Shown here piece after piece: positions 27,195 through 33,233 of a DNA stretch of 64,000 nt. Under the pieces are notes generated by a model. The model was not told where the DNA came from, searched no databases, and saw nothing but the letters and a program-made list of their open reading frames with translations. Origin of the DNA: an uncultured Opitutia bacterium (GTDB lineage Bacteria > Verrucomicrobiota > Verrucomicrobiia > Opitutales > UBA953); NCBI GenBank assembly GCA_903840355.1, contig CAIMFJ010000008.1, forward strand, positions 62,001 through 126,000, in the 5' to 3' direction. The translations under genes were made by a program, and so were the position numbers. Each line of letters begins with the position of its first letter. The first letter of the stretch is position 1.

Positions 27195-27225
27195 AACCCC
27201 GTCGCCGATGCGTCGGGGTTTTTTT
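27195..27225 (+). terminator. Intrinsic terminator of rpsT
   Basis: Stem aaccccg/cggggtt (27195-27201 with 27214-27220), with an internal mismatch and two more pairs, followed by T residues to 27225. Confidence 0.85.
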
Positions 27226-27277
27226 GTTTCTCACGTTGAGCACGGTTAACTCCATCGGCTTCCCGAGCGGGCTCCTC

Positions 27278-28033
27278 ATGGAGACGCCGTTACGCATCCC
27301 CATCTTGGCAACGGGCCAAGGCTGGATCGCCCTCGATAAGCCCGCCGGCGTAGCTCTCGATGATCACCCTTGGCAAAATCAAGCCCCGCACTTGGTCGGG
27401 GCCCTGCGCGTTCAACTTGCCCAACAAAAACCTGAAATCGTCAAATTAGGGCTCACCGAACCTGGAGCTGTCGTGGGTCCCGAACCCGAAGCAGCTGGTA
27501 TCTCGATTATTGCGGATCGTACCAGCGTCCTCAGCGCATGGCGCGAAGCCGTCGGCTCGGGTGCTTTCGTCTTTCATTTTGAATTCATCGCCCGCACTGA
27601 AGACGCCCCTGAAGATGGCGGGCTTTGTGATTTACCCATCGGGATGGACGACGCGGAACAACGCGCCTTCGTCTCCCATAAACATGGCAAACTTGCGACG
27701 ACCCGTTTTGAAGCAGGGCGAGCCTGCGGGCGCTGGAGAATCTGGACCGCACACACGCCTTACCATCGCCGTGATCAAGTACGCCTACATGCGGCTGAAG
27801 CCGGCTTACGCATTGCCGGAGAACTTAAATACGGTCGCTCTGGAAGAGTCACCCTGACTGACACCACGCCACGAGGGCGTTTAAATAAAGGCGAAGACAA
27901 GCCCCTCCATCGCGGTCTGTTATTACGACTCGCTCGGCTCGAAGGTAAAGTAAACGGGCAAGTGATTGCCGTCACCGCTCCGCGGCCTGATGATTTTGAG
28001 ACCGTCGTAAAGCGTCTATCTCGCGGAATCTGA
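27278..28033 (+). CDS. RluA/RsuA-like pseudouridine-synthase homolog with altered active site
   Basis: A 251-residue protein that follows the pseudouridine synthase layout: WIALDKPAGVALDDHPW (motif I region), HKHGKLATTRFE, HTPYHRRDQVRLHAAEAG (as in HTGRxHQIRxH), LRIAGELKYG and LHRGLLLRLA. At the place where active enzymes have RLDxxTSG it reads VVGPEPEAAGISII, so the catalytic Asp and preceding Arg are missing. It is probably catalytically dead or changed. Start at 27278 gives a natural N-terminus; a TTG upstream would read into the rpsT terminator. It converges, with no gap, on the flavin reductase gene. Confidence 0.7.
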   Translation: METPLRIPILATGQGWIALDKPAGVALDDHPWQNQAPHLVGALRVQLAQQKPEIVKLGLTEPGAVVGPEPEAAGISIIADRTSVLSAWREAVGSGAFVFHFEFIARTEDAPEDGGLCDLPIGMDDAEQRAFVSHKHGKLATTRFEAGRACGRWRIWTAHTPYHRRDQVRLHAAEAGLRIAGELKYGRSGRVTLTDTTPRGRLNKGEDKPLHRGLLLRLARLEGKVNGQVIAVTAPRPDDFETVVKRLSRGI

Positions 28034-28645
28034 TTAGTTGCGGGGCGAAGCCAAAGTAAAGCGCTCCACCGTACGCACATAACCATCAGGACTATTCAAA
28101 CGTCCAATGGGCACATAATTGGCATAGTTAACATGCCAAGTGTCGGGATGGGCTACCCCCTCGCGTACATGCGCCAATAGTAATTCTAAAACCACTAACC
28201 GATTTTCGCCATAGCGGCGAATGTCCATCACCCGGGCCTCTAACGCCACGGGACAATCGACAATAATGGGAGGCCGCACCAGTTCAGCGGGACGCGTGCG
28301 TAGGCCAGCAAAAGTGATTTCGCTCTGCCCTGGCGGCAAACTGCGAGCACATTGCACCATGGCTTGGGCCACGGGTTCATCGCAAAGGTGAATCACGGCC
28401 TCGCCATTCTGCATCAAATTCGCAGCCGTGTCTTTGGGCGTCCCATCATCGCGATCACCCGGAGCCAAAACTGCCATGGGAGGCTCCGTGCCCATGACAT
28501 TAAAAAACGAAAAGGGTGCAGCGTTGACGTTGCCTTGAGCGTCGAGGGTCGTGACCAAGGCAATCGGACGCGGCACCACAAGGCCGGCTAAGAGTTTATA
28601 AGCTAAGCCACCGGCATTGGCCGTGAGATCGAAACGTAGACTCAT
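28034..28645 (-). CDS. Flavin reductase / FMN-binding split-barrel protein
   Basis: A 203-residue member of the flavin-reductase-like (flavoredoxin) family: an FMN-binding split barrel. Motifs seen are YKLLAGLVVPRPIALVTT, the FMN contact NAAPFSFFNVMG, and KDTAANLMQNGEAVIHL, all typical of the group. It probably reduces FMN with NAD(P)H or serves as an FMN protein. It is the last gene of the minus-strand operon ileS-dksA-like-lspA and overlaps lspA by 4 bases; its stop touches the stop of the convergent pseudouridine-synthase-like gene. Confidence 0.85.
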   Translation of the reverse strand: MSLRFDLTANAGGLAYKLLAGLVVPRPIALVTTLDAQGNVNAAPFSFFNVMGTEPPMAVLAPGDRDDGTPKDTAANLMQNGEAVIHLCDEPVAQAMVQCARSLPPGQSEITFAGLRTRPAELVRPPIIVDCPVALEARVMDIRRYGENRLVVLELLLAHVREGVAHPDTWHVNYANYVPIGRLNSPDGYVRTVERFTLASPRN

Positions 28646-29229
28646 TTTAAAGGGGCCTGATCTTCTCCAGCGTGCGAGGCAATGGCTGCCCGACGAGTGG
28701 CATCATGACGATAAGCCAATAAGAGATAAAGCCCCACGCCGACACAGATACAAGCATCCGCGACGTTAAAAGCGGGAAAGCGATAATAAGGCAGGTGGAT
28801 ATCTAAGAAATCCACCACCAGCCGACGCATGACCCCTTGAGCATCCGTCCATCCAAACAAACGATCATGCACGTTCCCCAGAATACCCCCCACGAATAAT
28901 CCGAAGGCCCATTGACCGCCGGGAAGCTCTCGCAACAAGGGACGGCGACTCCACCACACAAAGCCTAAGACCAAGAAAGCGAGAATTAGCAGGAATGGCT
29001 GTACTTGGTATTGTGAGCCCATGCCCCAGGCTGCGCCCTTATTCCCCACGTGTACCAACCAAAACCAGGACGTTAAATGAATGGGCAACTGCTCAAGGTT
29101 TTCCTCAAAGTAGGTGCCAAAAGGAATATGGTGGACCACCAGATACTTGGACCACCAGTCGAGGGCAATCGACAGGAAGGCCACGATCCAAAACGTCCGA
29201 TAAGATCGAAACCTAGCGAGCATGTTCAA
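28642..29229 (-). CDS. lspA: Lipoprotein signal peptidase (signal peptidase II)
   Basis: Inner-membrane aspartyl peptidase that removes signal peptides of lipoproteins, 195 aa with four helices. Conserved blocks: HVGNKGAAWGM (normally NxGAAFS), GGILGNVHDR, then the catalytic Asp140 in VVDFLDIHLP and Asp158 in FNVADACICVG. It lies 5 bases after the DksA-like gene and two genes after ileS, the common ileS-lspA linkage. At least one lipoprotein substrate is encoded in this window (18032-18322). Confidence 0.93.
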   Translation of the reverse strand: MNMLARFRSYRTFWIVAFLSIALDWWSKYLVVHHIPFGTYFEENLEQLPIHLTSWFWLVHVGNKGAAWGMGSQYQVQPFLLILAFLVLGFVWWSRRPLLRELPGGQWAFGLFVGGILGNVHDRLFGWTDAQGVMRRLVVDFLDIHLPYYRFPAFNVADACICVGVGLYLLLAYRHDATRRAAIASHAGEDQAPLK

Positions 29230-29234
29230 CGGAC

Positions 29235-30407
29235 TCAGCTGTCGCTGGGTTCGTCTTCGCCGCCACCACCACCAGTGCCAAAGCCCACTTCGTCACTGAT
29301 TTCGCCCAAGGGATTACCAGCACCCCGACGGCGGTGTGCCCGACGATTGCGTTCTAGTTCCTTTTGACCATCTAAGGAATAACGCGTAAAGGGTACGGCC
29401 ATTAAACGTGCATGAGGAATGGGCTTCTGCGTAATTTCGCAAATCCCATAGGTCCCGCGCTTCATACTTTCAATCGCATCGGCAATATCCTTGAGTGCTT
29501 CTTGCTCGTTAGAAATGAGCGACAACGCAAAGTCGCGATCAGCCGTGTCCGTGCCGGCATCCGCCAAATGCTGCGAATAACCCGAAAGGTCTCCGGCATC
29601 ATCTTTACCATTTTTCTTCAAAGCTTCTTCCGAGTGGAAAGCGACGCCCTTCTGCAAGGCTTCACGCATGTCGACGAGTAAGCGGTAGTAGCGACGGAAT
29701 TTTTCGGGAATCTGTTTAGACTCTTCAATCGGATCGCCGCCGGTCTTGGAAAAATTACCCCCCAGTAAATCGTCAATCGATGCCGCCGCGACATTATGAG
29801 TGCGCGTGCCTTGGCTACGAGCAGCGGCGGCGGCTTTCTCGCGAGCCTTACGCTCTTCTTCAGGCACCCAAAGGTTTAACTTAGAGCCAGCCTTTTTGCG
29901 GGTCGCCAAGTATTCCTTAACATCAGCAATCGTGTAAAACTGCAACTTGGGACGGGGAACCACCACCAAGGCATCATCATCTCCCTTATCCTTACGGTGT
30001 TTATCTAAAAGATGTTTTTGGGCTTCATGGGTTGCTTTGCTTTCCTCTGATCCCTTTGCAACTCCCTTGGCTTTATTACCAGTAGCTGACTTATTTCCAG
30101 CTGCCTTAACTTCTGCGGCCTTACTGGTGCCAGACTTGCCTTTAACCGGTTCAGGGGACTTCCCTTTCCCGGTAGTAGGCTGCTTAGTGGGCATGGTGGC
30201 CTTGGTGAGTGCGGTTGCCTTAGTGAGTGTCTTAGCAGATGCACCCTTGGCAGTCGTGCCTCTAACTTCAGGTTTTTTAGCCGAGACGGGCTTGGTCGGG
30301 GCTGCCTTGCCTACCTTGGACGGAAGAACTTTTTTCTTATCCACTGACGCCGCCTTAGATGCGGGACCTTTGGCTTTGGACTTAGAGGAGGGAGTTTTTT
30401 TGGACAT
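29235..30407 (-). CDS. DksA/TraR-like protein with long basic histone-like N-terminus
   Basis: A 390-residue protein in two parts. Residues about 1-145 are low-complexity, rich in Lys, Ala, Ser, Thr and Pro (SKSKAKGPASKAASVDKKK and similar), like histone H1-type tails. The C-terminal half is a DksA/TraR module: helical hairpin with the acidic tip DTADRDF (DPVDRA in DksA), then GTYGICEITQKPIPHARL and PFTRYSLDGQ where DksA has its zinc finger. Only one of four zinc cysteines remains. It may bind RNA polymerase through its secondary channel, with the tail binding nucleic acid. Embedded in the ileS-lspA operon (gaps of 6 and 5 bases). Confidence 0.82.
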   Translation of the reverse strand: MSKKTPSSKSKAKGPASKAASVDKKKVLPSKVGKAAPTKPVSAKKPEVRGTTAKGASAKTLTKATALTKATMPTKQPTTGKGKSPEPVKGKSGTSKAAEVKAAGNKSATGNKAKGVAKGSEESKATHEAQKHLLDKHRKDKGDDDALVVVPRPKLQFYTIADVKEYLATRKKAGSKLNLWVPEEERKAREKAAAAARSQGTRTHNVAAASIDDLLGGNFSKTGGDPIEESKQIPEKFRRYYRLLVDMREALQKGVAFHSEEALKKNGKDDAGDLSGYSQHLADAGTDTADRDFALSLISNEQEALKDIADAIESMKRGTYGICEITQKPIPHARLMAVPFTRYSLDGQKELERNRRAHRRRGAGNPLGEISDEVGFGTGGGGGEDEPSDS

Positions 30408-30413
30408 CGAGGA

Positions 30414-33233
30414 TTAAAGAGTTTGGTATTTTGCGAGAAGGACTTCCCGGCAACGAGGAGATACCATACCGAAACGGCCGGCGTCCACAAGTGCGGGAAA
30501 GTATTTCCACGAACGGGGGCAACGGACCCCGGGGGCTTTCATAGCCTTGATTTCCAAATTGGCACCCTTTTGAGGCACTAAAGTCACCGCCGAGAGCACC
30601 CACATATCTTCTAGCTCCGCCTGACAAGTGGTCAAAAGCACGAAATCAGGGTCTTGCGGATCACCCGTGACGACGGCGGCCGCATCGAGTGATAGGCTGA
30701 TTTCCCCAGCTTGGCGCATCTTCTCTAACTGGACATTTACCTGGCCGACCAAGACCTGCAAGCGCTCTACTTTAGTGTGGGCATCTAAGGCCTTCTCATC
30801 TTCCCAAGCCGCCGGGATGGTGGGCCAATCTTCGAGGTGGATGCTCGTGGTCGCCCCATACTCCGTTTGTGTCTGGAAATGCGACCAAGCTTCATCCGCC
30901 GTCATCGACAAGAAGGGAGCCAAAAGCTTAAGGTAAACTTCTAAAACTTGGCGCATCACCGTCTGCGACGAACGGCGAAGCGGGTCATTCGGCACCGTCA
31001 CCTGCAAGCGATTTTTGAGGACCTTGAAGTAGGTGGCTGACAAGACATTAGAAGTGAAATTAGCCAACGCGGCCTTCGCTTGGTGGAACTCGTAGACTTC
31101 CGAAGCCTCGGTGACAGCCCGCACGAGTTTGGCTAATTCAACCAAGACCCAACGATCAATGCGCTCGCACTGAGCTAACGGTACGGCATCGGTAGCGGCA
31201 TTGAAATCACTCGTATAACCTAACAAGAAGTAGATGGTGTTGCGGAACATCCGATACTCTTCGCTGATGTTCTTAAAGATACTGTCCGCCACGGGCACAT
31301 CTTTCTGGAAGTTCTGCGAGGCCACCCAAAGGCGCACGATCTCGGCACCGTAAGTCTTCACGTAGACATCGGCAGTTTGCGGCTTCGCGTCGGACTTCGA
31401 AATCTTTTCGCGCTTTTCATTCACCACGAAACCGTGCGTGACCACGGCCTTGTAGGGCGCGGCGTGTTTCACGGCGACACTCGTCCACAAGGACGACTGG
31501 AACCAGCCACGGTGTTGGTCGGAGCCTTCGAGGTATAAATCAGCGGGCCAATGCAAGTCAGGGTGCTTAGCACAAACCGCTAAATGGCTCGTCCCGGAAT
31601 CGATCCACACATCTAAGGTGTCTAAACCCTTACGTAAATCCTTAGGCCAAGCAGTAGGCACAGGAGCCCCTTCCAGCAAGGTTTCGACGGACGAGGCCCA
31701 CCACCAATCGGCACCGTGTTCGGCAACCTTTTGGGCGACGTGGCGGATGACGCCGGCATCCAAGTAGGACTCTCCTGTAGAAGGAGAATAGAAAGACGGA
31801 ATCGGCACGCCCCAAGCACGTTGACGCGAGATGCACCAATCTGGGCGGGTCGAAACAGCCGCGCGAATACGGTTTTCACCTTCAGCGGGAATCCATTGGA
31901 CTTTTCCAATCGCATCCAAGGCCGCGTTGCGCAGGCCATGGCGATCCAAGCCGACAAACCATTGGTCCAAGGCACGGAAGACAACGGGGGATTTAGAACG
32001 CCAGCAGTGAGGGTAAGAATGCTTCAAGCCCTGCACCTTGAGCAGGTGGCCGCTTTCTTTTAGCAGTTCCAGCACGGCGATATTGCCAGGATTTTTGCCT
32101 TCCACTTCTAACACCGAAACCCCGACCAAGCGAGCGGGCACGCGACCGTCATCGACATACGTGCCATCATCTTTCACGGGACAATAAACTTCTAATCCAT
32201 ACTTCACGCCAGTGTGGTAGTCTTCTAAACCGTGACCCGGAGCCGTGTGCACACAACCCGTACCGGCTTTATCTTCAACGTAATCCGCCAAGACGATGGG
32301 CGCATCGCGCTCGATGAAAGGGTGACGCGTCACGAGACCTTCTAAAGTTTTGCCTAGACCACGCCAGCCATCCACGGCATCCGTTAATTCGCAGGCTTGC
32401 ACGAAGCTATCACGCAAAGCGGCTGCGACTAAGAACGAGCGGCCCCCATGGCGCACTTCGACATACTCCAAGGCGGGGTTAACCGCGATGGCCAAGTTAG
32501 CAGGCAACGTCCAAGGCGTGGTGGTCCAGATTACCACCGAAAGCGGGTGAGCCGCCGTGATACCGCGACTGGCAGGATTGGGCACGGGGAAGCCGACCCA
32601 GATCGACGTGGAACGTTTTTCCAAGTGTTCCACTTCGGCTTCTGCCAAAGCGGTCTGACAAGGGATGGACCAATACACTGGCTTCTTGGAGCGGTAAACC
32701 AAACCCCGATCCACAAAGGTCGCAAAGGATTTCAAGATCTCTGCTTCATAGCCAGGATCCATCGTCCGATACTCCGACTTCCAATCAGCCAAGATGCCGA
32801 GGCGTAAGAATTGTTCACGTTGCTTCTCGATAAAGGCTGCCGAAAAATCTGCACAGGCCTTACGTACCCCCAAGGCATCTAAAGACTTCTTCGAGGCCTG
32901 GATTTCTTTCATCACCTTAAACTCGATAGGCAAACCATGACAGTCCCAGCCAGGCACATAAGGCGTGCGCCAGCCCCGCATGGATTTATAACGCAAGATC
33001 GTATCCTTTAATAATTTATTTAAAGCGGTACCGATGTGGACGTCGCCATTGGTGAACGGCGGACCATCGTGAAGCACGAAGACCGGGCAACCCTGGCGCT
33101 TGGCTTGAATTTGCTCATAGAGACCGCTTTTGGCCCAGTGTGCCACGCGGACAGGCTCCCGCTCCACCAGACCAGCTCGCATCGGAAAGCCGGTGGTGCA
33201 TTTATTTAAAGTATCTTTGAAATCGATTTCCAT
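30414..33233 (-). CDS. ileS: Isoleucyl-tRNA synthetase
   Basis: Class I aminoacyl-tRNA synthetase, 939 aa. HIGH motif in GPPFTNGDVHIGTALNKLL, the editing (CP1) domain with VVIWTTTPWTLPANLAI and DYVEDKAGTGCVHTAPGHG, KMSKS as KREKISKSDAK, and an anticodon-binding region. The C-terminus GVRCPRSWKYFP ... VSPRCREVL keeps two of the four cysteines of the usual zinc finger. It heads the operon ileS-dksA-like-lspA-flavin reductase. The 5' leader (33234 onward) contains two alternative hairpins. Confidence 0.96.
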   Translation of the reverse strand: MEIDFKDTLNKCTTGFPMRAGLVEREPVRVAHWAKSGLYEQIQAKRQGCPVFVLHDGPPFTNGDVHIGTALNKLLKDTILRYKSMRGWRTPYVPGWDCHGLPIEFKVMKEIQASKKSLDALGVRKACADFSAAFIEKQREQFLRLGILADWKSEYRTMDPGYEAEILKSFATFVDRGLVYRSKKPVYWSIPCQTALAEAEVEHLEKRSTSIWVGFPVPNPASRGITAAHPLSVVIWTTTPWTLPANLAIAVNPALEYVEVRHGGRSFLVAAALRDSFVQACELTDAVDGWRGLGKTLEGLVTRHPFIERDAPIVLADYVEDKAGTGCVHTAPGHGLEDYHTGVKYGLEVYCPVKDDGTYVDDGRVPARLVGVSVLEVEGKNPGNIAVLELLKESGHLLKVQGLKHSYPHCWRSKSPVVFRALDQWFVGLDRHGLRNAALDAIGKVQWIPAEGENRIRAAVSTRPDWCISRQRAWGVPIPSFYSPSTGESYLDAGVIRHVAQKVAEHGADWWWASSVETLLEGAPVPTAWPKDLRKGLDTLDVWIDSGTSHLAVCAKHPDLHWPADLYLEGSDQHRGWFQSSLWTSVAVKHAAPYKAVVTHGFVVNEKREKISKSDAKPQTADVYVKTYGAEIVRLWVASQNFQKDVPVADSIFKNISEEYRMFRNTIYFLLGYTSDFNAATDAVPLAQCERIDRWVLVELAKLVRAVTEASEVYEFHQAKAALANFTSNVLSATYFKVLKNRLQVTVPNDPLRRSSQTVMRQVLEVYLKLLAPFLSMTADEAWSHFQTQTEYGATTSIHLEDWPTIPAAWEDEKALDAHTKVERLQVLVGQVNVQLEKMRQAGEISLSLDAAAVVTGDPQDPDFVLLTTCQAELEDMWVLSAVTLVPQKGANLEIKAMKAPGVRCPRSWKYFPALVDAGRFGMVSPRCREVLLAKYQTL

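Follow-up and report, generated by a model that had tools for sequence, protein, structure and literature searches.

We describe a gene from an uncultured Opitutia bacterium whose product, judged by sequence comparison, looks like a widespread, ppGpp-blind variant of the DdbA-like design: a lysine-rich N-terminal tail joined to a module predicted to have the DksA fold. The gene lies within a window of 64,000 nucleotides (the whole stretch of DNA that was analysed). The H1-plus-DksA architecture as such is already known from Streptomyces DdbA, as the accessible accounts of that protein describe it. New here are its spread through Verrucomicrobiota, a quantified selection on tail charge, one version of the tail that carries AT-hooks, and a setting that is apparently free of RelA/SpoT.

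The gene and its DksA-type module

The gene is real and well conserved. It is an open reading frame of 390 amino acids that fills its interval exactly from ATG to stop, between ileS and lspA on the same strand (Table 1). No other product of the 2.27-Mb genome, rated 99% complete, matches the DksA/TraR zinc-finger family. A relative is present in 38 of 38 genomes of the narrowest set, 167 of 177 at the level of the order and 137 of 144 at the level of the phylum, counts that include the window's own genome and, in the wider sets, its nearer kin. Elsewhere in the window, an open reading frame at 27224-28033 (plus strand) resembles RluA-type pseudouridine synthases by eye, but matches no Pfam family at E of 1 or below.

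Table 1. Positions in the window of the DksA-like gene, its neighbours and the parts of its product
Feature	Positions	Strand	Description and basis
Whole coding sequence	29235..30407	minus	DksA/TraR-superfamily protein with basic N-terminal tail; ORF; relatives begin MSKK/MPKK-like
ileS, isoleucyl-tRNA synthetase	30414..33233	minus	Pfam tRNA-synt_1; synteny; 6 bases upstream of the DksA-like gene
lspA, signal peptidase II	28642..29229	minus	Pfam Peptidase_A8; synteny; 5 bases downstream of the DksA-like gene
Basic tail, residues 1-145	29973..30407	minus	Lys/Ala/Ser/Thr-rich, net +24; composition; mostly predicted disordered
Motif A, residues 154-172 (KLQFYTIADVKEYLATRKK)	29892..29948	minus	Short helix motif; order-wide
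Motif B, residues 206-219 (consensus LGAASLADILGFNP)	29751..29792	minus	Pattern, order-wide
Predicted DksA module, residues 226-361	29325..29732	minus	Coiled coil 235-267 + 284-317, globular part, C-terminal helix from 345
HLADAG, residues 280-285	29553..29570	minus	Probable position of the DksA tip DxxDxA; alignments, weakly the model
DTADRDF, residues 287-293	29529..29549	minus	Placed within helix 2; alignments, model
zf-dskA_traR region, residues 318-353	29349..29456	minus	Pfam PF01258; one of four Cys kept
Acidic Gly-rich C-terminal tail, residues 362-390	29238..29324	minus	Strong conservation in the genus

The C-terminal part of the protein is predicted to be a DksA module. PF01258 matches with 29.7 bits against a gathering cut-off of 24.9. 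The AlphaFold2 model of the whole length (pLDDT 54.6, pTM 0.30) is too poor for a fold search, and the module was therefore modelled alone. The resulting model of residues 226-366 has a pLDDT of 79.1 and a pTM of 0.65, with the tip loop (270-285) below 50. It matches DksA2 (4ijj; Foldseek E 8.7e-6, VIA Z 12.0) and E. coli DksA (1tjl; VIA-align Z 12.3 over 122 residues at 3.5 A). VIA matches ranked beneath the DksA chains have Z of at most 9.0, except for the DksA relative 2kq9, and represent common helical arrangements. In the predicted structure, residues 226-361 adopt the DksA fold.

Membership of a named DksA family is another matter. Scores against the DksA equivalogs TIGR02420 and NF033459 are 38.3 and 41.1 bits, both under the respective cut-offs of 115.5 and 105. 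The best NCBIfam match is to YteA (TIGR02890), at 78.8 bits and under the family cut-off of 134.4. A CarD_CdnL_TRCF domain is absent among the protein's Pfam matches to E 1.

Two further conserved parts had been overlooked in the initial annotation. The first is a stretch of about 80 conserved residues that separates tail from module and holds two motifs. Motif A, which has a predicted helix at 160-172, matches a loose pattern in 44 of 48 order loci, and motif B matches its pattern in 46 of 48, with similar sequence visible by eye in the loci L081 and L082; both patterns were composed after viewing the sequences, that of motif A without a shuffled control. The motifs persist even at loci where the tail is short or non-basic (L054, L031). 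We considered whether motif B corresponds to residues 9-22 of E. coli DksA (TSSLSILAIAGVEP). This is the best profile placement, yet 1266 of 20000 shuffles of DksA equal it, and the N-terminal part of DksA is left unaligned with the motif in a profile search of the PDB; the correspondence is thus unsupported. The second overlooked part is the acidic C-tail, ending in GEDEPSDS, which is near-invariant within the genus and under more constraint than the N-terminal tail. It could counter the basic tail. Acidic C-tails are present too in 13 loci from the class's other orders.

Composition, selection and spread of the basic tail

The tail has an extreme composition. As had been stated from the sequence, about 145 Lys/Ala/Ser/Thr-rich residues precede the DksA module: these four residues make up 59% of the tail, compared with 27% across the 58 non-overlapping ORFs of the window. 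The 34 lysines (23%) are a strong enrichment over the same ORFs (binomial P 1.9e-13), aromatic residues are entirely missing, and the tail holds the most basic 60-residue segment of the 58 ORFs (net +15; the next ORF reaches +13). In the whole-length AlphaFold2 model, pLDDT stays below 50 at residues 8-119, and a helix is predicted near the tail end at 119-139. The earlier label "histone-H1-like" holds for this composition and fails for family membership, with no linker-histone H1 or Hc1 family among the protein's Pfam matches to E 1 and no Hc1 match anywhere in the genome.

At one locus, L060, nine RGRP[PR]K AT-hooks stand where other loci have K/A repeats. The AT-hook is a motif for the DNA minor groove. 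By analogy, the AT-hooks of this single locus are a possible functional swap for the repeats.

One search of the genome for other tailed proteins, of a kind that detects composition-biased tails with difficulty, returned two weak matches (E 0.06 and 0.55), both interrupted by stops. The genome's sole GreA/GreB match (contig C4 near 533975-534202) is inside an open frame of 684 amino acids, and this Gre factor thus seems also to have a long N-terminal extension.

The tail is translated, as shown by gaps in the first 330 bases, of which 125 of 131 are multiples of three among 53 same-genus pairs (identity at least 80%). Over the same pairs, the first 100 codons contain 1028 synonymous and 1205 non-synonymous differences; the codons of the module and C-tail contain 1949 and 245. 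Within the first 100 residues, 49 pairs of at least 85% identity differ in 129 of 2519 comparisons at Lys (5%), 696 of 2758 at Ala (25%) and 311 of 1527 at Pro, in alignments that favour lysine matches. Five gap-free pairs (at least 88% identity and equal length) are free of such bias, and among them Lys differs in 1 of 257 comparisons versus 29 of 251 for Ala. All these pairs share rows and are statistically non-independent.

Base composition tells a similar story over a wider range. Across 79 loci that span GC 0.36 to 0.74 (same-genus rows thinned to four, regions below 60 residues left out), the content of A+P+G before the module tracks GC (rho 0.86), while Lys is independent of it (rho -0.06), as is K+R (rho 0.06). 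Since lysines rarely change, and since Lys ignores GC while the spacer residues follow it, these comparisons indicate that selection holds the charge of the tail rather than its sequence.

The tail is widespread. We obtained 117 loci with sequence; outside the genus, most families are represented by one or a few chosen loci, which makes the sample non-random. A tail was called basic if the stretch ahead of the module was 40 residues or longer and carried a net charge of at least +10. The initial annotation had named absence of the tail from near relatives as evidence against its proposal; 23 of 25 same-genus copies have it, and the remaining two are cut by contig ends. It also occurs at 35 of the 44 remaining order loci, a selected sample, and at 31 of 47 beyond the order (6/13 in the class's other orders and 25/34 elsewhere in the phylum). 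Loci that keep the module but have no long basic tail make up 9 of the 44 from the order beyond the genus, 7 of the 13 from the class's other orders and 9 of the 34 from the rest of the phylum. With so many loci of this kind, the tail would be inessential to the function of the module. The part of the protein that precedes the module varies in length from 10 to 395 residues, the contig-truncated L023 not counted.

A single origin of the tail is doubtful. A tree of 98 rows needs at least 14 changes of the tail label, of which well-supported branches force only two. Its rows leave out the truncated loci L014, L023 and L026 and L048, a duplicate of L070, with same-genus rows thinned to seven. The duplicate is counted in the 117-locus sets and dropped from the tree, the GC test, the 116-locus residue counts and the tail census.

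lspA lies within the stretch read around the relative at 24/25 genus, 42/44 order, 0/13 class and 32/34 other phylum loci; the corresponding counts for ileS are 23/25, 42/44, 0/13 and 3/34. All are lower bounds, as the stretches cover a few kb at most and some reach contig ends. The gene for DdbA (SCO2075), a protein reportedly described by Aldridge et al. in 2013 (Nucleic Acids Res 41:4813), is presumably also located beside ileS and lspA in Streptomyces.

Among plasmid-borne relatives (four of six records), no basic tail precedes the match in proteins from Bacillus, Leptospira and a Pseudomonas fluorescens record, where this region is about 20 residues long at most. A plasmid-borne Gemmatirosa frame, of uncertain start, has no Lys-rich tail either, though it is rich in Arg towards the N-terminus. 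The record filed as a P. fluorescens plasmid (L166; NZ_CP100662.1, 15805-17719) carries a yteA-family sporulation gene with Bacillus-like neighbours, and is possibly a mislabelled contig.

Coiled-coil tip, zinc site and ppGpp setting

The DxxDxA tip of DksA very probably corresponds to H280-L-A-D283-A-G285. In a MAFFT alignment, 40 residues separate the tip Asp from the first Cys in E. coli DksA and the window protein alike, and when the protein is aligned by profile to DksA2 of Pseudomonas, HLADAG falls opposite DEADLA. Helix 2 starts at residue 284 or 285 in the models, in agreement with this register, although the support is weak because residues 270-285 fall below pLDDT 50. The equivalent helix varies in length within the superfamily, as in TraR, which keeps the register at very probable. 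The motif DTADRDF, previously read as the acidic tip, is thus very probably misplaced; the alignments put it inside helix 2. The accompanying claim that Asp replaces Ala76, and that activity may differ for this reason, rests on the same placement.

With the tip at HLADAG, the protein reads HxxDxG: Asp71 is His, Ala76 is Gly, and Asp74 is kept as D283. This pattern extends across 116 loci, where the equivalent of Asp74 is Asp in 107 and Glu in five, that of Asp71 is His in 90 and Asp in two, and that of Ala76 is Gly in 103 and Ala in two. The changes at Asp71 and Ala76 make DksA-like activity uncertain. The loss of the zinc finger noted earlier was borne out, with one of the four Cys of the C4 site retained. 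Over 117 loci, 82 have one zinc Cys, 13 have two, four have three and 18 have all four. The accessible text of PMC9239242 describes DksA-like function in other bacteria as not tied in every case to a zinc site, with DksA2 doing without it.

Enzymes of the RelA/SpoT type, and ppGpp synthesis by them, seem to be missing from the order. A search for RelA_SpoT gave no match in the window's genome. Counting that genome, 56 of the 57 order genomes searched were without a match, as were 37 of 38 among those with a completeness of 90% or more; the same search found a match in 11 of 14 control genomes. The single match among the 57 (genome G046, contig C49, 5034-5354) has an E of 6e-19 and lies in a 369-residue frame. 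A 2011 survey, in its accessible part, lists RelA/SpoT as absent from three Verrucomicrobia, 15 Chlamydiae and one Planctomycetes taxa (PMC3153485).

The residues of DksA that contact ppGpp are given as R91, L95, K98, R129 and K139 in the available text of PMC7676912. In the window protein, these site 2 residues are replaced by N, A, D, V and Q. The equivalent of Lys98 is Glu in 102 of 116 loci, Asp in two and Lys in none; Lys is found at the position of Lys139 in 14 of 117 loci, and Arg at that of Arg129 in four of 117. The homologues from Bacillus velezensis and Leptospira likewise have Glu at the position of Lys98. Bacillus subtilis, in the control list, has RelA_SpoT; Leptospira, too, has such an enzyme. 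The Lys98 change is thus better regarded as a trait of this branch of DksA proteins, and the idea that it followed from loss of RelA/SpoT is weakened. The DksA-like protein may work without the stress signal ppGpp.

Proposed action and known systems

We propose, with moderate confidence, that the protein is a two-part factor whose module acts in the secondary channel of RNA polymerase without ppGpp and whose lysine-rich tail tethers polymerase to nucleoid DNA. The DksA-type module would occupy the channel, where the retained tip aspartate D283 (= D74) would mediate its action with no requirement for ppGpp. The disordered tail would bind DNA, rather than RNA, through its charge and with little sequence preference. 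It would thereby tether the factor, and hence the polymerase, to the nucleoid, and polymerase activity would be coupled to the state of the chromosome, with a presumed effect on transcription. We favour this explanation because of the predicted fold, the spread of the tail, the selection on its charge, the lack of RelA/SpoT matches in nearly all order genomes searched and the replacement of the ppGpp contacts.

The proposed coupling is modelled on Streptomyces DdbA, as proposed there, and on Myxococcus CarD. Among tested precedents for the design, DdbA is the nearest. In the accessible accounts, it is nucleoid-associated, and its H1-like N-terminus, which binds DNA, is followed by a C-terminus of the DksA type (PMC9043899). 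Deletion of DdbA (SCO2075) affects chromosome compaction and spore resistance, and a review table has it modulating RNA polymerase "combined with ppGpp" (PMC11942623, as available). By description, the window protein has the same architecture of a basic tail, H1-like by composition, joined to a DksA-like C-terminal domain. The initial two-part reading thus stands in sequence and predicted fold, while the view that such a design would be unusual needs qualification. The systems differ in that DdbA belongs to Streptomyces and is described as ppGpp-combined, whereas the window protein belongs to an order of another phylum with RelA_SpoT unmatched in nearly all genomes searched. CarD of Myxococcus xanthus likewise joins a polymerase-binding module to a basic disordered AT-hook domain, and according to the accessible part of PMC8156234, this HMGA-like domain of CarD can be exchanged for human HMGA, for H1 or for the H1 tail. 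The AT-hooks of L060 fit this precedent. CarD differs in its polymerase module, which is of the CarD/CdnL type and binds the beta subunit, and in its reversed domain order.

Two other systems are matched through the module. The best PDB sequence match is Chlamydia trachomatis DksA (6ptg; 4e-17, profile 4.4e-24), which reads HQADQGTD at the tip, keeps one zinc Cys in the aligned stretch and comes from a group whose 15 taxa have no RelA/SpoT homologue in the accessible survey (PMC3153485). Unlike in the window protein, no more than 20 residues precede the aligned stretch of this 132-residue chain, and so there is no long tail. Bacillus YteA, the best NCBIfam match, is set apart by its score under the cut-off and by a Bacillus velezensis homologue without a basic tail. 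Among the best literature matches, in some cases the best 10 of 3,897 or 15 of 365, no title concerned a DksA tail in Verrucomicrobiota.

The tail might instead bind RNA (nascent transcript, rRNA or ribosomes) and act on elongation or on transcription-translation coupling. We consider this unlikely, even though the charge of a disordered Lys-rich region cannot by itself separate DNA from RNA. The replacement of K/A repeats by AT-hooks in L060 argues against RNA; it is the only result here that separates the two, and comes from one such locus. It is improbable that the protein is mainly a nucleoid-compacting one whose DksA-type module has no polymerase function. Replacement of Asp71 and Ala76 at the tip, loss of zinc ligands and equivalog scores far under their cut-offs would fit such a protein, but two observations would not: the strong constraint on module and C-tail (the synonymous excess given above), and loci of this phylum at which the module follows a tail that is short or not basic.

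More improbable again is that inorganic polyphosphate is what the tail binds, or what it tethers something to, as may be the case for the H1-like KPAA tail of Pseudomonas AlgP. In the available text of PMC9239181, AlgP has a K/A/P-rich disordered tail of similar composition that is needed for polyphosphate granule spacing, but AlgP appears to contact the nucleoid when polyphosphate kinases are absent. The AlgP tail also differs in being C-terminal, with no DksA module described in that text. Least probable of all is low-complexity drift, in which a ligand-free tail is kept only as a soluble spacer: the span of 10-395 residues, the quick sequence turnover and the many label changes on the tree (at least 14, with only two forced by well-supported branches) would suit it, but Lys is conserved and independent of GC.

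The two-part explanation invites a bolder extension, which we regard as doubtful: in an order apparently free of RelA/SpoT, this ppGpp-blind, ileS-lspA-linked DksA homologue would have become a secondary-channel factor that links nucleoid and polymerase. Its variable charged tail, made of K/A repeats or, in one lineage, of AT-hooks, would sense how dense or supercoiled the DNA is, in place of an alarmone.

Judging by the distribution described here, the H1-plus-DksA design that Streptomyces is reported to have is also common in a second phylum. This raises the question of what role a DksA-type factor has in bacteria that are seemingly unable to make ppGpp. Furthermore, the natural variation of 10 to 395 residues before the module provides a ready series for studying the effects of a tail on a polymerase factor.
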